From Nitrospirota bacterium (GTDB lineage Bacteria; Nitrospirota; Leptospirillia; Leptospirillales; Leptospirillaceae), in contig JAKADN010000001.1 of NCBI GenBank assembly GCA_021820445.1, positions 1-64,000 of the forward strand: DNA of 64,000 nucleotides, read 5' to 3'. Shown one piece after another: positions 38,989 to 49,452 of the stretch. The translations under genes were made by a program, and so were the position numbers. The notes beneath the pieces are model-generated. The model was not told the origin of the DNA, ran no database searches, and saw only the letters and a list, made by a program, of their open reading frames with translations. The stretch's first letter is position 1, and each line of letters opens with the position of its first letter.

Positions 38989-40578
38989 ATGGCCGATAAC
39001 CGTGGGAATCTTGTCTTTGTCCTGCACGCGCACCTTCCCTATGTTCGCCATCCGGAGCACGAAGTCTTCCTTGAGGAAAACTGGTTCTTCGAAGGGCTGA
39101 TCGAGACCTATCTTCCCCTTCTTGCGATGTTCGACCGGCTGGGCCGGGATCACGTCCCTTTCCGGATCACCATGACGCTCTCCCCCACGCTGGTGTCGAT
39201 GATGGAGGACCCTCTCCTGATGGGCCGCTTCGAAAAACGGCTTTCCCTTCTTCGGGAGCTTTCGGAGCGGGAGGTGGTCCGGACCCGCGGGACGGAGTTC
39301 GAAGGGGTTTCGCGATTTTACAGGGACCACCTCGAATTTCTCGAGCGTGTCTACCGGCAGGATCTGGGCCGGAACCTTCCCGGCGCCTTTCGGCGCCATA
39401 TGGAATCGGGGGCCCTCGAGGGGATCACTTGCGGGGCAACCCACGGTTTCCTGCCTTTTCTTCAGGAAGTTCCGGGGTCGGCGGAAGCCCAGGTCCGGGT
39501 CGGCGTTTCGACCTTCCGTCGGGTCTTCGGGCGGGCTCCCCAGGGAATCTGGCTTCCGGAATGCGCCTATTACGAGGGACTCGACCGGATTCTCCGGAAG
39601 GAGGGGCTTCGCTTCTTCTTCATGGAGGCCCACGGGCTCCTCTATGCCGACCCGAGGCCTCCGGCCGGGGTCTACGCCCCTTTGGTGACGCCCTCAGGGG
39701 TCTGGGCGTTCGGACGCGATCCGGAATCCTCCCGGCAGGTCTGGAGCGCCAAGGAGGGTTATCCCGGGGACTTCGCCTACCGGGATTTCTACCGGGACAT
39801 CGGCTACGATCTCGATTACGACTACGTTCGTCCCTACCTCCATACCGACGGTCCCCGGGGGATGACGGGTCTCAAATACCACCGTATCACCGGTCCGACC
39901 GACCAGAAGGAGGTCTACAACCCGGCCTGGGCCCAGGATCGGGTCAGGGCCCACGCACGGGACTTCGTCGAGCGGAGGTCGGCTCAGGTCCAGGGCCTTG
40001 CCGGAGTTCTTGGGATTACGCCAACGGTCGTATGTCCTTACGATGCCGAGCTCTTCGGCCACTGGTGGTTCGAGGGGGTCAATTTTCTTGAGGAGGTTTT
40101 TCGGATTGTCGCCAGCCAGAACACGGTCGAGGTCCACACCCCCGTCGAGCTTGTGCGCGCGGGAATTCCGGCCTCCGAAGGATCTCCGGAACCGTCATCC
40201 TGGGGGGAAAACGGCTATTATGAGTTTTGGATGAACGGAACGAACGACTGGATCTATCCGCCTCTGTTCGAGGCGGCCCGGGAGATGGCCCGCCTGTCCG
40301 AGAGAGCCGGGGAATATCGGGGGCGCGACCGGGAGATTCTGAATCAGATGGGGCGGGAACTCCTTCTGGCCCAGAGTTCGGACTGGCCCTTCATCATGAC
40401 GACGAAGACGATGGTCGAGTACGCCGTGGACCGGCTCAAGGGCCACCTCTACCAGTTCTGGGCCCTCCGGGAGATGCTGGTCTCGGGCCGTTTCCGGGAA
40501 GATGTCTTCCGGGAGCTCCGGGATCGGGACCCCCTCTTTCCCGAACTCGACATGTCGGTTTTTATTCCGCTGGACTGA
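38989..40578 (+). CDS. GH57 1,4-alpha-glucan branching enzyme
   Basis: A 529-residue enzyme of the DUF1957-containing GH57 group. HAHLPYVRHPEHE (region 1), candidate nucleophile E191 in WLPECAYYEG, and acid/base D352 in PYDAELFGHWW are present, with the tryptophan-rich helical C-domain (AQSSDWPFIM) of branching enzymes. It should add alpha-1,6 branches to cytoplasmic glycogen. 173 bases of non-coding sequence separate it from the aldolase gene; AGGGAGG precedes the start. Confidence 0.85.
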   Translation: MADNRGNLVFVLHAHLPYVRHPEHEVFLEENWFFEGLIETYLPLLAMFDRLGRDHVPFRITMTLSPTLVSMMEDPLLMGRFEKRLSLLRELSEREVVRTRGTEFEGVSRFYRDHLEFLERVYRQDLGRNLPGAFRRHMESGALEGITCGATHGFLPFLQEVPGSAEAQVRVGVSTFRRVFGRAPQGIWLPECAYYEGLDRILRKEGLRFFFMEAHGLLYADPRPPAGVYAPLVTPSGVWAFGRDPESSRQVWSAKEGYPGDFAYRDFYRDIGYDLDYDYVRPYLHTDGPRGMTGLKYHRITGPTDQKEVYNPAWAQDRVRAHARDFVERRSAQVQGLAGVLGITPTVVCPYDAELFGHWWFEGVNFLEEVFRIVASQNTVEVHTPVELVRAGIPASEGSPEPSSWGENGYYEFWMNGTNDWIYPPLFEAAREMARLSERAGEYRGRDREILNQMGRELLLAQSSDWPFIMTTKTMVEYAVDRLKGHLYQFWALREMLVSGRFREDVFRELRDRDPLFPELDMSVFIPLD

Positions 40579-40620: not shown

Positions 40621-40989
40621 CTAACGCTTTTCGGCCATGAAGGCCTTGAACCGCTCCAGCTCTTCGAGGGCCCCCTGGAATTCTTCCAGATCGCTCATGA
40701 AGGGTCGAATTTTCTCCATTTCCTCCATGAAGCTTTTGAAGCGTTCCATCTCGGCCATGAGGGCCTTCATGCGGTCCTGTTCCGAAACGAACACCGCCCG
40801 GAAACGGTCCATCTCCGCGAGAAGGAGCTTGAACTTCTCCACCTCGGCCATGAAGGAGCGGAAGCGCTCCATCTCGACCGTCAGGGCCTTGAAGCGGTCG
40901 AGGTCGTTCATGGAGGGCCGGACATAGAACAGTTCGGTCATGAAGGAGCGGAATTTTTCGAGCGTCGAGGCGGTCTTTCCGGGTTCCAT
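40621..40989 (-). CDS. Decapeptide-repeat amphipathic helical protein, unknown function
   Basis: A 122-residue protein. ATG 40989 is preferred because GGAGAG lies just upstream; ATG 41001 or TTG 41010 are alternatives. From residue 11 to 121 it is eleven tandem units of ten residues with consensus [ED]-[RK]-F-[RK]-x-[FL]-M-x-E-[ML], broken only by one extra residue (Q71). Units 1-2 are the most diverged. It is rich in Met, Phe, Glu and Arg, with no signal peptide, cysteine or membrane segment. I know no family with this repeat. It ends 42 bases from the convergent branching-enzyme gene. Confidence 0.7.
   Translation of the reverse strand: MEPGKTASTLEKFRSFMTELFYVRPSMNDLDRFKALTVEMERFRSFMAEVEKFKLLLAEMDRFRAVFVSEQDRMKALMAEMERFKSFMEEMEKIRPFMSDLEEFQGALEELERFKAFMAEKR
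40627..40959 (-). repeat. Eleven imperfect 30-bp coding repeats
   Basis: The DNA behind the decapeptide units. Copies share words such as TCCATCTCGGCCATGA and GGAGCGGAAGCG, so the gene likely grew by tandem duplication of a 30-bp unit. Confidence 0.7.
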
Positions 40990-41036
40990 GAATCTCTCCA
41001 TTCTTTGCAAATGTGAATAATAATTATTTATCTTTC

Positions 41037-41065
41037 ATAATAATCATGACGATAAAAAATTGTAA
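41037..41065 (-). promoter_or_regulatory. Promoter of the decapeptide-repeat gene
   Basis: On the minus strand TTACAA (41065-41060) and TATTAT (41042-41037) with 17 bases between, inside a strikingly AT-rich island (41010-41150). The overlapping CATAATAATCATGAC (41036-41050) is weakly Fur-box-like. Confidence 0.55.
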
Positions 41066-41207
41066 GAGGTTAAAAAAGAAAAATTATTTTTTTATCTTCA
41101 TTTTTCCAGACAGCTCTCTTCAATGAAAAGGATACACCAATATTTTTGATTGTCCAAGAGGTCCGAACAGCTCTTTACGGAACCAGCGGGACCGGACGAG
41201 GAGACAA

Positions 41208-42263
41208 ATGCAGCTGATCCGGCTCCTTCCCCGGTTGTCGTTCATCCCGATCCTCCTTCCGATTCTTGCAGGGTGCGTCACAAACCCTGTTCACCCTCGC
41301 CCTTCCGGAAAGGCCGCGCCGCCCTCTCCTCCTTCCGCACGTCCCCAGTCCGCCCTCCCTCTCACGAATGGGCCAATTCCCTCTTCCGCTCCGGCTCCCG
41401 GGCCCCTATTTTCGTCCTCCTCTTCCTGCGCTTCCGTGATTGTTTCTGCCACGGGAACCCGTCTGGAATTTGTCATGGTTGGAACGGCCTCCTTCGAAAA
41501 GAACCTGTCGAAGGAGCGCCTTCTGGCCCTTGCCACGCAGGACGCCCTTGCCCGGATTGACCGGTGCACCCGCCTTGAGACGCGTCTGTCTCGATTCTAC
41601 GATCGGACCTCTCTTCCGGATCCCGGGGATCCGGCGCGAATCCTGCGGATGATCCGGAAAGCCCTGGCCCCAGAGCCACACTACAGGATCGTCTCCGAGG
41701 ACTGCGAGGAAAAGGGAGGCCGACAGTTTTGTCAGGCGACCCTCGAAGGAACTCTTCGGAGATTTCGGCAGGATTCTGGATTCCGGGTTCTCTCCGCAGG
41801 ACCGGGACGGGGGGGTGCGTTCCGGGAGGGGGAGCCGATGACGCTTCGGTTTTCCCTGACAAAAAATGGCTGGATCTGGATTTTCGACGTGGACCGGAAA
41901 CGGGGGGCAACGCTTCTCTTTCCGGGACCTCCCTTTCCGGATGTGAAAAACGGGATTGCGGCGAGGAAGGTCTTTGTTTTTCCCCCGGAGACCCAGGCGG
42001 CGATCCGTCTCGTTGTCGCCCTTCCTGCAGGGGCGCAAAAAAGGATCGGCCATCTCTGGGTCGTCGCACTCCGGAGGCCCGACTGGCCGGAGCTTGCAGC
42101 ACTCGGGAACGGAAAGCCGGAGTGGGGTGGGAGGATTTCCACGGAACGTTTCTTCGCGAGAATTCTCCCGTCTCTTGGGAGGATCGCTCCTTCCGGGGAA
42201 TGGAGCCTTCGGGTGATCCCCTATGAGATTCTTCCAAAACAGGGGACTTCACCCCAAAAATAA
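41208..42263 (+). CDS. Lipoprotein with DUF4384-like C-terminal domain
   Basis: A 351-residue protein with a lipoprotein signal ending PILAGC (Cys23), then a Pro/Ser-rich linker to about residue 75. The middle has a helical part with KERLLALATQDALARIDRC, as in periplasmic proteins of the LPP20/FlgP type. The C-terminal half has GEPMTLRFSLTKNGWIWIFDVD, resembling DUF4384 domains. ACGAGGAG precedes ATG 41208. Function unknown; it may be surface or periplasmic scaffold. Confidence 0.65.
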   Translation: MQLIRLLPRLSFIPILLPILAGCVTNPVHPRPSGKAAPPSPPSARPQSALPLTNGPIPSSAPAPGPLFSSSSSCASVIVSATGTRLEFVMVGTASFEKNLSKERLLALATQDALARIDRCTRLETRLSRFYDRTSLPDPGDPARILRMIRKALAPEPHYRIVSEDCEEKGGRQFCQATLEGTLRRFRQDSGFRVLSAGPGRGGAFREGEPMTLRFSLTKNGWIWIFDVDRKRGATLLFPGPPFPDVKNGIAARKVFVFPPETQAAIRLVVALPAGAQKRIGHLWVVALRRPDWPELAALGNGKPEWGGRISTERFFARILPSLGRIAPSGEWSLRVIPYEILPKQGTSPQK

Positions 42264-42638: not shown

Positions 42639-42655
42639 GCGACTGAAAGTTGGCA

Positions 42656-43738
42656 GTGAGACTGACGCTTTCCAGAAAAAATCGCATTCTCGTTGGAGGT
42701 CTGGTCCTTCTCGTCCTGACCTCCGTCCTATTCTATGCTGCCCGCAAGCCGGGCTCCGTTTCTTCCCCGCTCCCCCTCGAGAAAGCCTCTCTTCCCTACG
42801 ATCCCTCCCGCTATCGCCCCGGCCGCGTCCGCTACCGCCACTTCGAACTCTGGACCTCGATTCCCGGGGTCATCCACGGTTTCCGGAAAGCGATCGTCTA
42901 TGGCCATGTTCCGGGGTATCTCAAATTTTTAAATGTCGACAAGGGGGACTGGGTCACCCGGGGACAGGTCCTGGGATACATCTACGATCCGGAGCTTTAT
43001 CAGAGCTGGCAGCGGGCGCTTGCGGAAGCCGAGATCGCCCACATCACCTTCCTCCGGAAATACCGGGTCTGGAAGGACGACCCCCGGGTCATCTCCCTGC
43101 AGCGGGTCCAGATGGCCGAGGCGCTCTGGAAGGAACGCGAGGCCCGGGCAAAGTATTACCATTCCCTTGTCCGCTACAAGACAATCGTCGCCCCTTTCAC
43201 CGGCATCATTACTCATCGTTATGTGGATCCCTGGAACCTCGTCTCCCGGGGAACCGGGGGGACGACTCCCGCCCTTCCCATCGTCAAGGTCACGGATGTG
43301 GACGAAATGCGTCTCTATGTCGGCGTTCCCGAGCATTTCGTCCGATTCATCAAACGGGGATTGCCCACGGAACTCCGGGCCCAGGGACTTCCGGGCCAGA
43401 TCTTCAAGGCCCGGGTCACCCGGTATGCCTTCCGTCTCAACCCGGAAACGCGCACGATGCGGACCGAAATCGATGTCGATAATCCCCGTCATCTCCTTCA
43501 CCCAGGCATGTTCGTGGATGCCCGCATCCGCCTTCATGTCTATCCTCACGTCCTCTCCGTCCACCATATGGCGGTGATCGAGGAGCGCCACGGAAATTTC
43601 ATCTTTGTCCTTCGGAACGGAAAGAAGGTCAAGCGTCCTGTGGTGGTGGGATACCGGAACGGGGACTACACCGAGATTCTCCAGGGGCTCGACGGGTCGG
43701 AGACAGTCCTCGTCAAGCTTCACAAAACAATTTTCTAA
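42656..43738 (+). CDS. RND efflux membrane fusion protein (adaptor 1)
   Basis: About 360 residues with one N-terminal membrane helix (NRILVGGLVLLVLTSVLFYA) and the HlyD/AcrA layout: lipoyl half VPGYLKFLNVDKGDWVTRGQVLGYI, helical hairpin, second half YKTIVAPFTGIITHRYVDP, then beta-barrel. The start is unsure: GTG 42656 or TTG 42650, neither with a strong ribosome binding site. It is clearly paralogous to the adaptor at 48220. It bridges the pump encoded next to an outer membrane channel. Confidence 0.85.
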   Translation: MRLTLSRKNRILVGGLVLLVLTSVLFYAARKPGSVSSPLPLEKASLPYDPSRYRPGRVRYRHFELWTSIPGVIHGFRKAIVYGHVPGYLKFLNVDKGDWVTRGQVLGYIYDPELYQSWQRALAEAEIAHITFLRKYRVWKDDPRVISLQRVQMAEALWKEREARAKYYHSLVRYKTIVAPFTGIITHRYVDPWNLVSRGTGGTTPALPIVKVTDVDEMRLYVGVPEHFVRFIKRGLPTELRAQGLPGQIFKARVTRYAFRLNPETRTMRTEIDVDNPRHLLHPGMFVDARIRLHVYPHVLSVHHMAVIEERHGNFIFVLRNGKKVKRPVVVGYRNGDYTEILQGLDGSETVLVKLHKTIF

Positions 43739-43796
43739 GATCCTGCAAACCTGCTACTCCGGATAACCGGGGATCAACGGAAAAGGGAGATGCTTC

Positions 43797-46700
43797 ATGT
43801 TTCTAGTCAGGATGTCGCTCAAGAGCCCCTATTCGATCATCGCGATGGCCCTGGCCATCGTTCTGCTGGGCGCCCAGAGCCTCTCCTCCATGAACGTCTC
43901 CATTCTTCCCCGGATTCCCCTGCCGGTCGTCGAGGTCCTGACCGTCTTCCCGGGAATGAATGTCTACAACACCGAGATGGACATCACCGAACAGATGGAG
44001 CGCATCATCCTCCAGGCCCCTTACATCCGGTCGGTGAAGTCGGAGAGTCTGGTCGGGATCAGCATGATCCAGATCCGCTTCCGGTCGACCTATTCGCTGT
44101 CGGCCGGGGTCTCGATGGTGACATCGCTCGTCTACTCTTCGCTCAAGTATCTTCCTCCCGGCATCTTTCCCCCCATCATCATTCCCTTCGGCATCTCGGC
44201 CATCCCCATTGCGGATCTGGTCCTCTCCTCGAAGGAGCTGACCCAGATGCAGATGTTCGACCTCGGATATTACAATGTCCGCTCCCAGATGGGGACAGTC
44301 CCCGGCGTGGCCGCTCCCCCCGTTTTCGGAGGTCTCTCCCGGCAGATCCAGGTCTACACCAACAATACCGCTCTTCTGGCCCGGGGGCTCACGATCTGGG
44401 ATGTGGTCAACGCCCTGAACAGGCAGAACATCGTCTGGCCGGCGGGATTCGCCAAGATCGGCGATATGAGCTACAACGTCTTTGTGAACGCCCTTCTGGG
44501 GCCGGTCAAGACGATCGGGGACGTTCCGATCAAGGTCGAGCATGGACAACCCGTTTACATCAAGGATATCGGAGTTGCCAAGGACTCCTACCGCATCCAG
44601 ACCAATCCCGTCCGGGTCGACGGCCGGAAATCCGTGTACATTCCCGTTCTGAAGCAGGAAGGGGCCAACACCGTCAAGGTGATCGACGCCACGAGAAACG
44701 CGATCAAGACCTTCTACGGTCTTCCGAAAAGCCTCGACATCTCGCTGGTCTTCGACCAGTCCGTCTACATCCGGGACTCGGTCGCCTCGCTTGAGCGTGA
44801 AGGGGCCGTCGGGATCCTGTTGACCGCGGCCATGATCTTGATCTTTCTCGGAAACGTCCGCTCCACCCTCATCATCACCACCTCCATTCCCCTGTCTCTT
44901 CTGGTGGGATTCGTCATGCTGAACGCCACCGGCCAGACGATCAACATCATGACCCTGGGAGGATTGGCCCTGGCCATCGGGCGCTTGGTCGACGACGCCA
45001 TCGTGGTCCTCGAAAACACAAACCGCCATCTGGAGATGGGAAAAGCGCCATCCCAGGCGGCCTTGGACGGGGCCGGAGAGGTCGCCATGCCGGTTCTGGC
45101 CTCGACGATCGCCACCATGATCGTGTTTTCCCCGGTTCTCTTCCTCCTGGGCAAGGGCAAGTATCTCTTCACCCCCCTGGCTGCAGCCGTCGCCTATTCC
45201 ATGCTGGCCTCCTACTTCGTCTCCATGACTCTGGTCCCGGTCCTTTCGGCATGGTTTCTGAAGCCGGAGTCGGCCTACAAGAACAGCCGGTCCCTTTTTC
45301 GCCGGGGGGTCACCCGGTTCAACGACTTTTTCGACAGGTTCAGAAAAATATACAGGACTTATCTGAAGATCGCCCTTCTCCATCGTGGTCCGGTCTCGAT
45401 CCTGATCTTCCTGGCCTTCGTTGGCTCCTTCTTCCTATTTTCCCGAATCGGCTCCGAATACTTTCCACCCGACGACACCGGGGCCTTCATCATCCAGATG
45501 CGCCTGCCAGATGGGAGCCGGATCGAAAAGACCGATGCAGTCAGCGCCCGGGTCGACGCCGCCATCCGCCGAATCATTCCGTCCAAGGACATCGTCCACA
45601 TCGTGATCAACGAAGGGGTCCGGCCCGGTTGGGATGCCATGTACACCACCAATCTCTGGAGCCACATGGCCTTCGTTCTCGTCCAGCTCAATCCCTCCAA
45701 CGAGCGCAAGCGCTCGATGTGGGATTTTCAGCACGAGCTCAGGCCCTATCTTGTCGCCCATTTTCCCAACGTCGAGTTCTACTTCGAATCCTCCTCCATC
45801 ATCACGCAGATCCTGGCGGGCTCGGGGGAGGCCCCGATCGATATCCAGCTCCTGGGTCCCTCCTATCGGAAGCTGGGGGAGATTGCCCACAGGATCGTGG
45901 ACCACATTCGGACCATTCCCGGCACCACCGATGTACGCTTGAAGCAGAACATCCATTACCCCTCGATGTTCATCGATGTGGACCGGAGCAAAGCCCAGTT
46001 TCTGGGGGTGACCGAGCTCGACGTGGAGCGGAACGTCATCACGAGCCTCGTGACGGACGTTGCGATCGGGGAAAACTTCTGGGTGGATCAGACTACGGGG
46101 AATCCTTATTTCCTGACCGCCCAGTATCCCGAGGACAAGATCAACTCCATGGACGCCCTCTCGAACATCCTCATTCGCCAGCTCAAGGGATCGGACTATA
46201 CGGAATCGGGAGTGGAGAATCCTCCCATCTACCTCCGGGACATCGCCCAGATTCGCAGGATCACTATTCCTCCGGCCATCTTCCATTACAACGTTCAGCG
46301 GGTGGTCGACATCCTGGTCAACGTGACTCATGATCCGGGGGTCTCCCTGGGCGGAGTCGGGAGCAAGATCGACACCTATCTGGGAAAAATGAATTTTCCG
46401 AAGGGTTACTCCTGGAGAGAGTCGGGGATGCTGGCCTCGATGCATCGGTCGTTCAGTTCGATGGGCCTTGCGGTTCTCCTGGCCATGGCCCTGGTTTACC
46501 TGGCCCTTGTGGCCCAGTTCCAGTCCTTCCTCGATCCCTTCATCATCATGATGTCCGTCCCCTTCGGCCTCATCGGGGTCTTCGCCATGCTGTATGCCAC
46601 CGGAACCGGGATCAACGTGGAGTCCATGATCGGGGTCATCATGGACATCGGGATCGGGGTTTCGAATTCGGTCCTCCTGGTGGAATTTGCCATCCGTCTG

Positions 46701-46973
46701 CGCGCCCAGGGGGCGCCCCTCTATCGAGCGGTGGTGGAGGCGGGTTCCACGCGTCTTCGTCCGATCCTGATGACGGCGGTCGGAACGGTTCTTGCCATGA
46801 TCCCGACCGCCATCGGGATGGGGGTCGGCTCCGGAGCCGAGGAGCCTCTGGCCCGGGCCGTGATCGGGGGCCTCATGGTCATGACAGTCCTGACGCTCGT
46901 TCAGGTTCCCATTTTCTATGTGATTCTCCACACATGGGAGGAGAAATGGAGGGCCCGGAGAGCCGGGAGATAG
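43797..46973 (+). CDS. RND efflux pump inner membrane subunit
   Basis: A 1058-residue permease with the twelve-helix RND fold and two large periplasmic loops. The helix 4 aspartates are D399-D400 in GRLVDDAIVVLEN. At the position of the AcrB helix-10 lysine it has serine (S956 in GVSNSVLLVEFA), as in a subset of RND pumps. Substrate unknown: it could export metals, organics or lipids. It follows adaptor 1 by 58 bases; the second adaptor and the outer membrane channel are 1.2 kb downstream. Confidence 0.9.
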   Translation: MFLVRMSLKSPYSIIAMALAIVLLGAQSLSSMNVSILPRIPLPVVEVLTVFPGMNVYNTEMDITEQMERIILQAPYIRSVKSESLVGISMIQIRFRSTYSLSAGVSMVTSLVYSSLKYLPPGIFPPIIIPFGISAIPIADLVLSSKELTQMQMFDLGYYNVRSQMGTVPGVAAPPVFGGLSRQIQVYTNNTALLARGLTIWDVVNALNRQNIVWPAGFAKIGDMSYNVFVNALLGPVKTIGDVPIKVEHGQPVYIKDIGVAKDSYRIQTNPVRVDGRKSVYIPVLKQEGANTVKVIDATRNAIKTFYGLPKSLDISLVFDQSVYIRDSVASLEREGAVGILLTAAMILIFLGNVRSTLIITTSIPLSLLVGFVMLNATGQTINIMTLGGLALAIGRLVDDAIVVLENTNRHLEMGKAPSQAALDGAGEVAMPVLASTIATMIVFSPVLFLLGKGKYLFTPLAAAVAYSMLASYFVSMTLVPVLSAWFLKPESAYKNSRSLFRRGVTRFNDFFDRFRKIYRTYLKIALLHRGPVSILIFLAFVGSFFLFSRIGSEYFPPDDTGAFIIQMRLPDGSRIEKTDAVSARVDAAIRRIIPSKDIVHIVINEGVRPGWDAMYTTNLWSHMAFVLVQLNPSNERKRSMWDFQHELRPYLVAHFPNVEFYFESSSIITQILAGSGEAPIDIQLLGPSYRKLGEIAHRIVDHIRTIPGTTDVRLKQNIHYPSMFIDVDRSKAQFLGVTELDVERNVITSLVTDVAIGENFWVDQTTGNPYFLTAQYPEDKINSMDALSNILIRQLKGSDYTESGVENPPIYLRDIAQIRRITIPPAIFHYNVQRVVDILVNVTHDPGVSLGGVGSKIDTYLGKMNFPKGYSWRESGMLASMHRSFSSMGLAVLLAMALVYLALVAQFQSFLDPFIIMMSVPFGLIGVFAMLYATGTGINVESMIGVIMDIGIGVSNSVLLVEFAIRLRAQGAPLYRAVVEAGSTRLRPILMTAVGTVLAMIPTAIGMGVGSGAEEPLARAVIGGLMVMTVLTLVQVPIFYVILHTWEEKWRARRAGR

Positions 46974-47004
46974 ACTGAGGGGTGAGGATTCCTCATGGAT
47001 AAGG

Positions 47005-47028
47005 CCGGCTCCCGCGATCAGGAGCCGG
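47005..47028. terminator. Hairpin between convergent genes
   Basis: Perfect eight-pair stem CCGGCTCC (47005-47012) / GGAGCCGG (47021-47028) with an eight-base loop, between the pump and the convergent ygfZ-like gene. There is no T-run, so it may be only a weak or Rho-assisted terminator. Confidence 0.45.
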
Positions 47029-47057
47029 TGAGGGTTGAGGAAAGGGAAGGATTCGGA

Positions 47058-48071
47058 TCAGTCGGGGGAGACGAAGGGAAAGTCGGAGATCTCGAAAGAT
47101 TGTCCCGCTCCGTCGATGAGGGTCGTTCCCGGCTCCCAGTGGGCCCGTTTCACGTACCCCAGGCCGATGACGCCTCCGGCGGCGGGAGAATAGGCGAGCG
47201 AGGTGATGCTCCCGGCCTCCGAGCCGTCAAGGGCCGAAAAAAGAGGACGGGGGCAGGCAGTCTCCAGGATCTTTGGGGTCTTCGCCCGGAGTCCGGTGAG
47301 CTTTCTCGAGAGCTGTCCCTGGAACTTGAGGCGGGTGACCGGCTCCTGGCCGACATAGCATCCTTTGTTGTAGGAAACGGCGACGGCGTCGAGGCCGGCC
47401 TCGGCCGGAAAGTGGCCTTCGTTCAGCTCGAAGGGGGGAAGGGGAATGCCGCATTCGAGGCGGAAGATCTCCATGTCTTCGGGAGCGAGACGCCTCCCCC
47501 CGGCCGAGAGGACACGGCGCTCAAGGTCCTGGAGGGTTTTTTCGAAGGAGTCCCCGGGAATCCAGAGATCGATCCAGGGGCCTGTCTCCCGTTCGAAGGC
47601 GAACCGGTGAGGATGGAGGAAGGCAAATCCGCCCCCCGCAAGGGTCCGGAGACCGTCTTCCGCCGGATCGCTCGAAAAGAGGGGAGTGGCCAGTGCGGGC
47701 GCTTCCCGGCCGACCAGAGTGAGGCTTCGAAACCCAGCGGTCAGGGATGTGAGGGTCGCTTTGGTTCGAAAGAAGAGATATTTTTTAAGATGAGCAACAA
47801 ACTCCTCTTCCATCCCTCCGGAGGGGGAGAGAAGGATGTCGTCGGGCCGGACGGCGATCCAGGCGTCGAAGAGAATGCGGGCCTTGGGATTCAGGAAAAA
47901 ACCGTAGCGAAGGGATCCCGTTGGCTGTGTCGCCACGTCCTGGCAGAGAAGACCCTGGAGAAAGGTGACGCGATCTTCCCCGGAGACGGAGATGAGCGAC
48001 CGGGAAGTGGCGGGGGCGAAAAGTCCGGCGTGTGCGTGGGCCGGGCGGGTATCTGTGGGGTGTGTCTGCAT
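47058..48071 (-). CDS. ygfZ: YgfZ/GcvT-like folate-binding protein
   Basis: A 337-residue protein of the GcvT-fold YgfZ (COG0354) family, with the hallmark NKGCYVGQEPVTRLKFQGQL and an N-terminal VSGEDRVTFLQGLLCQDV. YgfZ helps maintain some iron-sulfur enzymes using tetrahydrofolate. It lies on the opposite strand between the two halves of the RND system and has no evident functional link to it. Confidence 0.85.
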   Translation of the reverse strand: MQTHPTDTRPAHAHAGLFAPATSRSLISVSGEDRVTFLQGLLCQDVATQPTGSLRYGFFLNPKARILFDAWIAVRPDDILLSPSGGMEEEFVAHLKKYLFFRTKATLTSLTAGFRSLTLVGREAPALATPLFSSDPAEDGLRTLAGGGFAFLHPHRFAFERETGPWIDLWIPGDSFEKTLQDLERRVLSAGGRRLAPEDMEIFRLECGIPLPPFELNEGHFPAEAGLDAVAVSYNKGCYVGQEPVTRLKFQGQLSRKLTGLRAKTPKILETACPRPLFSALDGSEAGSITSLAYSPAAGGVIGLGYVKRAHWEPGTTLIDGAGQSFEISDFPFVSPD

Positions 48072-48219
48072 GGATGCGGGGCTCCTAATTCCGGGTTTTT
48101 CTCCCGGGAGTTGTCGTCTGGGTCCATGAAAGCGTCCTTTGCTGATATTAGGGAGACGAATCGAATGGTGTCAATGATTAGAAAAAATATCCCGACCGGA
48201 GGGGCCGGAGGAAAAAAAG

Positions 48220-49452
48220 ATGAGTGACGGAGAAACCACTCCCGCGGCGAACACCGAGGGCGGCCATCCGGCTGGAGAGGACCATGAGTCCTTCCGTCCA
48301 GAGTGGAGAAATGAAATCGACCTCACCGATGTACACCTTTCTCCGCGCGCCCGGCGGATCATCCTTGTCCTTTTCGCCGTCCTGATCATCGGACCCCTCA
48401 TCCTTTTCGTCTACTACTGGATCTTCCCTCCGAAGCCTCCGGTCCAGCCCCTTGCCGTGGTTCAGGTCCTGCCGGTCCGCCTCCGGACCCTCCACCACAA
48501 GGTGACGATCCCGGCGGGAATCGAGTCTTTCCGGAAGGCCATCCTGTACGCCCATGTGCCGGGCTACCTCAAGTATCTGAACGTCGACAAGGGGGACTAT
48601 GTGCACAAAGGCCAGGTGCTGGCCTATATCCAGGATCCTGAGCTCTACCAGACCTACCAGCGCTCCGTTGCCCGGGTCCGCATCGCCGACCTCACTTACC
48701 ACCGGATCAAGAGGGTCTGGCTCGACCATCCGGCCCTCATCTCGAAGGAGCGGGTCCAGCAGAAACTCGCGGCCTACCTGAAGGCGGTGGCGGAAATGCG
48801 CCACGAGGAGGCGCTGATTTCCTACAAGACCATCGCGGCTCCCTTCGACGGAATGATCACCCATCGCTATGTGGATCCCGGCAAGCTGATATCGGAAGGG
48901 ACCAATGCCACTGCGACCGCCCAGCCGATCGTGACGCTCGAGCAGGTAGATACCCTTCGGGCCTACGTCTGGGTCCCGGCCGACGTGGCGCCCCTGATCC
49001 GCCGGGGTCAGCGGGTCAAGGTCCATTTCGCGGGCCTCCCCCACCAGACATTCTGGGGCCGGGTCACCCGGTACGATTTCGAGGAGAATCAGAGAACGAG
49101 AACGATGCGGACCGAGGTCGACATGGAAAATCCGGACTTCGTCATCCATCCCGGGATGTACGGCAAGTTCACCTTTTATCTTCAGCGCTATCCCGACTCG
49201 ATCCTCATTCCGGGAATGGCCGTCATGGCCCGGCGCGACAAGCCCTATTCGGTCATGATCGTCAAAAACGGGAAGGTGCTCGAGGTTCCGGTGACGCTGG
49301 GCATTGACAACGCCAAGTGGGTCCAGGTTCTCTCGGGCCTCTCCGCCGGGGACGAGCTTGTCCTTGCCGGAAAATGGCATGTCCATTCGGGACAGAAGGT
49401 CAGGGCCGTACCCTACAAGCCGGTGCCGTTCCGGCCGGCCAGACAGCTGTGA
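48220..49452 (+). CDS. RND efflux membrane fusion protein (adaptor 2)
   Basis: A 410-residue adaptor starting at ATG 48220 after GGAGG. A cytoplasmic N-terminal segment of about 45 residues precedes the membrane helix (RRIILVLFAVLIIGPLILFV), longer than in adaptor 1. The lipoyl and hairpin parts (VPGYLKYLNVDKGDYVHKGQVLAYIQDPELYQ; YKTIAAPFDGMITHRYVDPGKL) run closely parallel to adaptor 1, so the two arose by duplication. Followed 52 bases later by the outer membrane channel gene. Confidence 0.88.
   Translation: MSDGETTPAANTEGGHPAGEDHESFRPEWRNEIDLTDVHLSPRARRIILVLFAVLIIGPLILFVYYWIFPPKPPVQPLAVVQVLPVRLRTLHHKVTIPAGIESFRKAILYAHVPGYLKYLNVDKGDYVHKGQVLAYIQDPELYQTYQRSVARVRIADLTYHRIKRVWLDHPALISKERVQQKLAAYLKAVAEMRHEEALISYKTIAAPFDGMITHRYVDPGKLISEGTNATATAQPIVTLEQVDTLRAYVWVPADVAPLIRRGQRVKVHFAGLPHQTFWGRVTRYDFEENQRTRTMRTEVDMENPDFVIHPGMYGKFTFYLQRYPDSILIPGMAVMARRDKPYSVMIVKNGKVLEVPVTLGIDNAKWVQVLSGLSAGDELVLAGKWHVHSGQKVRAVPYKPVPFRPARQL

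Follow-up and report, generated by a model that had tools for sequence, protein, structure and literature searches.

The decad-repeat gene and its neighbourhood

The window, the whole stretch of 64,000 nucleotides analysed here, carries on its minus strand a small gene encoding a protein built almost wholly of ten-residue units (decads). Translation starts at an ATG at 40989 with GGAGAG ahead of it, and the stop codon occupies 40621-40623. Its 3' end faces that of the final gene in a glycogen cluster, a tail-to-tail arrangement. The features of the locus are the following:

38989..40578, plus strand: GH57 1,4-alpha-glucan branching enzyme gene (BE_C and GH57 domains), the convergent neighbour
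40621..40989, minus strand: decad-repeat protein gene, 122 aa plus stop, with orthologues and under purifying selection
40627..40776, minus strand: decads 7-11, residues 72-121
40702..40707, minus strand: invariant Arg95-Pro96 in decad 9, at the same decad position as Arg24-Pro25, with no predicted helix break
40777..40779, minus strand: Gln71 codon, a one-residue slip within the invariant SEQDRMK stretch
40780..40959, minus strand: decads 1-6, residues 11-70
40915..40920, minus strand: invariant Arg24-Pro25 in decad 2, where a helix break is predicted in a second-clade orthologue
41129..41157, minus strand: promoter-like element TTGGACA...TGTATCCT, 29 bases, aligning across the window's clade (eight genomes)

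The original prediction, made from the letters of the DNA, described eleven ten-residue units covering residues 11-121 of the 122 residues, with a single one-residue slip. Lag-10 identity in the window protein is 0.232, against a mean of 0.086 (sd 0.026) for shuffled sequences, and none of 20,000 shuffles reaches it; the repeat stands, and the extra residue is Gln71. The consensus across 13 orthologues is [ED]-[RK]-F-[RK]-[SAP]-[FL]-[ML]-x-E-[LMV], and its register continues unbroken through both Arg-Pro pairs. The description of a highly charged helix also fits the window protein, 38.5% of which is charged, with Phe, Met and Leu together contributing 32%.

A promoter belonging to the gene itself had been proposed as well. 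A conserved promoter-like element does lie upstream, at 140-168 bases from the start codon, but outside the interval originally described; within that interval there are two weak consensus matches at the upstream end (41066-41023). Of the eight genomes in the window's clade, six (L001, L002, L004-L007) show the exact pattern of the 29-base element, with L003 and L008 differing by at least one base, and the element is single-copy in the window's 2.2-Mb genome even when up to three mismatches are allowed. In the five genomes of the second clade, GTGTATAAT is found about 100-110 bases upstream. The 29-base element and GTGTATAAT would each be a putative promoter of the decad gene. The transcription start that this implies would leave a variable, AT-rich leader of about 130 nt before the start codon. 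A folded RNA leader was considered and rejected, with z ranging from -3.4 to +0.5 over eight leaders, no shared fold seen and no match in Rfam. The leaders L012:1864-1966 (-) and L004:1378-1515 (+), of two orthologues, fold clearly better than their shuffles (z -3.4 and -3.0), the rest less so or not at all, with no common hairpin seen.

Convergence with a glycogen-branching GH57 gene was recognised correctly at the outset. The cluster that this gene terminates also holds a nucleotidyl transferase with a GlmU-like hexapeptide domain, which reads as GlgC-like, two further GH57 proteins, a GalT-like protein and a class II aldolase-like protein. The order branching enzyme-aldolase-GalT-like-GH57 is kept in 12 named loci as far as their contigs or flanks reach, the nucleotidyl transferase lying beyond them. 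Between the decad gene and the branching-enzyme gene there are 34-77 bases in 11 of these 12 loci and 793 bases in the second-clade locus L025, where the gap (L025:5960-6754) contains small frames of 88-134 aa.

The opposite flank differs between the two clades. In the window it is occupied by a DUF4384 protein with a lipoprotein-like N-terminus (41208-42263, plus strand), a homologue of which sits at that flank in all seven other loci of the window's clade; no GH15 match is found there within 30 kb on the same contig. Identity across seven loci is 32-72% for the DUF4384 protein and 84-97% for the branching enzyme. In four of the five second-clade genomes (G002, G003, G005 and G007; the contig of G011 ends too soon) the flank is a GH15 gene, of the glucodextranase type in both genomes scanned with Pfam. 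At L022:5386-7731 and L025:2900-5206 (-) this GH15 gene replaces the DUF4384 protein beside an unchanged decad gene. Farther along the window lies an RND efflux set of two HlyD-type proteins and an AcrB-type pump (42650-49449, plus strand), and such a set adjoins the glycogen cluster in three sister-genus loci too.

Five sister-genus genomes have the branching enzyme, and the frames near it give no match to the decad profile (best 5.4 bits). The next homologue of a window gene beside the enzyme is an HlyD-type protein in three of these five genomes. In one sister-genus genome, a frame that is presumably a transposase lies downstream of the branching enzyme (L050:5822-7057, plus strand).

A genus-specific gene under purifying selection

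A profile search of 295 genomes across the phylum (E 0.001) finds orthologues in 13 of the 14 genus members, while the 281 other genomes sampled give none. The single absence, in G010, is uninformative because the branching-enzyme gene is cut by a contig edge in this genome, which is 70% complete. Searching 61 genomes with the single sequence (E 0.01) returns 14 matches, the same 13 of 14 genus genomes and a weak one in G016 (L014, E 0.003). The latter is rejected as a chance match: it falls in a 385-aa GGDEF-like frame, which from its motif we take to be a diguanylate cyclase, and it is gone from the profile search at E 0.001. When the profile is run against the 21 genomes of the family at E 1, the 13 genus genomes are joined by two insignificant matches, one in G016 (E 0.98) and one at a second place in G008 (E 0.099). 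A profile of three decads gives nothing beyond the decad gene better than E 0.059 in the same 21 genomes, with several weak matches at E 0.06-0.9, five of them in sister-genus genomes. A pattern scan covering 84,980 species, each represented by one genome, detects only relatives keeping one of two short peptides; it yields 12 loci from 50 pattern-matching stretches, all in Nitrospirae bacterium MAGs. The family may be that of Leptospirillum.

Known families provide no relative either. None is found among the viral contigs, plasmids and phages searched, and PHROGs gives nothing below E 0.035. No Pfam or NCBIfam family passes its cut-off (best E 0.0025 and 0.0056, respectively), and no phasin family is among the weak matches listed. 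Sequence searches of the PDB with the full and three-decad profiles return nothing better than E 0.19 (best E 0.19-0.26). Foldseek retrieves no PDB chain and three insignificant viral models, which shows little, a lone helix being a poor query.

The 13 orthologues amount to 12 distinct proteins, two being identical, and share 61-98% identity with the window protein. All are 122-124 aa long and align without internal gaps, with the slip at a constant position. Variation in repeat number among strains, the check originally put forward, is not seen: each of the 13 has eleven decads. Half of the columns (61 of 122) are invariant, most densely in decads 4-7, and within the decad invariance is most frequent at position 3, the Phe (nine of eleven decads). 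None of the 13 departs from either Arg-Pro pair or from the SEQDRMK stretch. When the window protein is compared with two second-clade orthologues, decads at the same position are on average 0.61-0.64 identical, against 0.33 for other positions; the decads had therefore already diverged from one another when the genus split, and homogenisation is not under way. TRF detects no 30-bp repeat array, so recent duplication is not visible in the DNA.

The gene is under purifying selection: twelve comparisons against the window copy (Nei-Gojobori, first 119 codons) give pN/pS between 0.024 and 0.381, the upper values being rough because the distant clade has accumulated many synonymous changes (pS 0.59-0.64). 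That the frame could be a chance opening or an antisense artefact is suggested by a 96-aa frame open on the opposite strand, but selection acts on the decad frame, the opposite frame has internal stops in L002, L007 and L013 (three of the eight genomes printed), and GGAG precedes the start in all 13 genomes. These data refute the artefact, to which we assign practically no weight. The decad gene is real, old and genus-specific.

Periodicity, stripe and predicted helix

Hydrophobic residues fill decad positions 3, 6, 7 and 10 of the window protein in fractions of 1.0, 0.82, 0.91 and 0.82. With the slip residue removed, the hydrophobic period is 3.34, at a power of 25.9 that none of 5,000 shuffles reaches, compared with 1.60 at 3.5 and 0.55 at 3.6. 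The same period of 3.34 is obtained for 13/13 orthologues after removal of the slip, and 3.38 with the slip kept. The period of 3.5 that marks heptad coiled coils is not that of the decad protein, and power at the hendecad period of 3.667 is 0.35; a core spacing of 3-4-3 with a period near 3.33, the mark of a decad coiled coil, is what is found. The remark that a strict ten-residue register is unusual for a helical repeat holds. Neither of the outcomes named in advance as speaking against the original prediction, a family with normal heptads or a lack of orthologues and selection, has come about. Among 187 gene-like ORFs drawn from the window and 17 loci, 13 of these 18 sources carrying the decad gene, the nine strongest at periods of 3.2-3.4 are all copies of it (21.4-25.3), and the next ORF scores 12.3. 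The copies in L016, L021, L022 and L023 are absent from this list, longer overlapping frames having displaced them.

On a helix of 100 degrees per residue, the hydrophobic stripe is left-handed and slopes by -6.15 to -6.36 degrees per residue in 13/13 orthologues, turning about -620 to -640 degrees overall with a pitch of 85-88 A. By the same measure, ideal heptads give -2.85, ideal hendecads +1.81 and ideal decads -8.00 degrees per residue. The broad Phe/Met face of the original prediction does not survive: a single face is wrong because the hydrophobic direction turns by some 620-640 degrees along the molecule, the stripe rotating by about -6.3 degrees with each residue. Within 90 degrees of the best face lie 61% of the hydrophobics of residues 11-121 at 3.6 residues per turn and 84% at 3.38, and single 18-residue stretches reach 88-100% at 3.6. 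With typical radii, a pitch of 87 A would tilt the helices by about 20 degrees in a dimer and by 25 degrees in a trimer, compared with 12 and 15 at 145 A.

Charges are ordered too. Acid-to-base pairs at i+3 number 17, where shuffled sequences average 4.2 and none of 5,000 reaches 17, and there are no base-to-acid pairs at that spacing; like-charge pairs number three at i+3 and none at i+4. Counts of acid-base pairs at i+4 are 2 and 1, unlike what defines an ER/K single helix.

AlphaFold2 predicts the window protein as one helix over residues 9-121 (mean pLDDT 85, pTM 0.41), with block-mean pLDDT of 90-97 over residues 41-120 and a helix that continues through 71 and 96. In the model of a second-clade orthologue, helices span 8-22, 24-27 and 31-123 (mean pLDDT 85, pTM 0.39; block means 89-96), the breaks at 23-30 falling at the invariant Arg24-Pro25. 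Both models are least confident over residues 1-30, a two-residue tail block apart. Both are monomer models from shallow alignments (13 and 10 sequences), uninformative on oligomers.

A possible coiled-coil rod near the limit of periodicity

The protein is conserved, genus-specific, unusual in its periodicity and probably helical. We consider it about an even chance (roughly 0.5) that it is a small, soluble structural protein of this genus, forming an overwound left-handed coiled-coil rod of consecutive decads. In the predicted models, residues 31-121, and perhaps the chain from about residue 9, would form one alpha helix of up to about 170 A. The hydrophobic decad positions make up the left-handed stripe with its period of 3.34-3.38, and the acid-to-base i+3 pairs share the decad register. 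A stripe that winds in this way could be buried only by winding tightly around a partner, so the helix would wrap around further copies of itself or around a partner helix, with a pitch near 85 A. The product would be an overwound left-handed rod in which each decad is a stammer. Self-association and the rod are inferred, and so is a place in the cytoplasm, from an N-terminus that reads as having no hydrophobic segment. A filament role, as touched on in the original prediction, or a rod role is possible. For the role in the cell, a rod or scaffold in glycogen metabolism is the best guess from gene position alone; the glycogen neighbourhood is suggestive, but adjacency is weak evidence because the neighbourhood is syntenic across the genus.

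The same helix could instead wind around a different protein, as a hetero-coiled coil or filament binder, for example a scaffold for glycogen enzymes. In 13/13 genomes the gene converges on the GH57 branching-enzyme gene, and in four second-clade genomes it is also divergent from the GH15 gene, but gene order is conserved here anyway, five sister-genus genomes have the branching enzyme without a decad match, and beyond the decad gene itself the three-decad profile gives nothing better than E 0.059 in the 21 family genomes; we regard this as rather unlikely. Far more remote is an amphipathic surface coat, a phasin or lipid-surface protein, for which we see very little room. Phasins are small amphipathic helical proteins, as the decad protein probably is, and its small size and highly charged helix with abundant Phe, Met and Leu would suit such a role, as would the 18-residue stretches noted above, which imply that a short piece could lie on a surface. 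The face of the whole chain, however, turns continuously, with 61% of hydrophobics near the best face at 3.6 against 84% at 3.38. PHA synthase (PhaC) is detected in 0/14 genomes of the genus, only two of which are at least 90% complete, and, unlike phasins, the decad protein has no Pfam family over cut-off. The phasin-like role once suggested is unlikely because no PHA synthase is found in these mostly incomplete genomes and the stripe winds.

A doubtful but serious competitor is a chain that breaks at the Arg-Pro pairs (24-25 and 95-96) or at the slip near residue 71 and folds into a small bundle or hairpin dimer. The invariance of both pairs and of SEQDRMK in 13/13 orthologues favours it, as do the predicted break at 23-30 in one orthologue, the low confidence over residues 1-30, and a crossing angle near 40 degrees, double the 20-degree tilt, which is better suited to short helices packed together than to a long coil. 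A coiled coil kept at 10/3 throughout would also sit at the edge of the range considered accessible (PMC4786415), so that the helix might break instead. Against this stand an AlphaFold2 helix unbroken at 71 and 96 with block means of 90-97 over residues 41-120 (89-96 in the second model), and a decad register that runs on across both pairs. The eleven-decad chain would thus be either a coiled coil near the limit or a helix that avoids the limit by breaking, and the coiled coil is rated somewhat higher because the register crosses the prolines, the charges follow the register and the predicted helix is long.

Among known systems, hendecad (11/3) coiled coils and 11-residue amphipathic repeats are likewise short tandem helical repeats without heptads, but their twist is opposite, at +1.81 degrees per residue for the ideal hendecad against about -6.3 for the decad protein. 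ER/K single alpha helices have many acid-base pairs at i+4 and few hydrophobic residues; the decad protein is similarly rich in acid-to-base pairs along one helix, but pairs them at i+3 and contains 32% Phe, Met and Leu. There is a likeness to the stammer, a three-residue insertion with a local periodicity of 10/3, or 3.33, a value taken in an eLife 2016 paper as the lowest that coiled coils can reach (PMC4786415). The stammers described there interrupt heptads and are accommodated by a short 3-10 stretch (PMC4786415), whereas here eleven decads follow one another without heptads. A decad [4,3,3] is described in one enzyme interface in a 2022 dimer survey (IJMS, PMC9369452), and the decad protein core [3,4,3] is a permutation of it, sharing with stammers and decads ten residues over three turns and an increased left-handedness (PMC4786415, PMC9369452). 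The survey gives no decomposition repeating the distance 3 or 4 more than once, as in 3+3+3; the decad protein has 3+3 at each decad junction and never 3+3+3 (PMC9369452).

No paper describing this protein or a decad-only coiled coil was found in searches of an open-access library. Tentatively, the protein may be a natural coiled coil made of decads only, with eleven consecutive stammers that keep the periodicity at 3.33-3.38 for over 100 residues and a pitch of about 70-90 A, its alpha helix possibly overwound toward 3-10 geometry along the whole length. If its structure is as the sequence suggests, such a protein would test the lower limit of coiled-coil periodicity directly and offer designers a tightly twisted rod. 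If true, the reading would mean that one bacterial genus has fixed a coiled-coil class lying at the very edge of what was thought possible.
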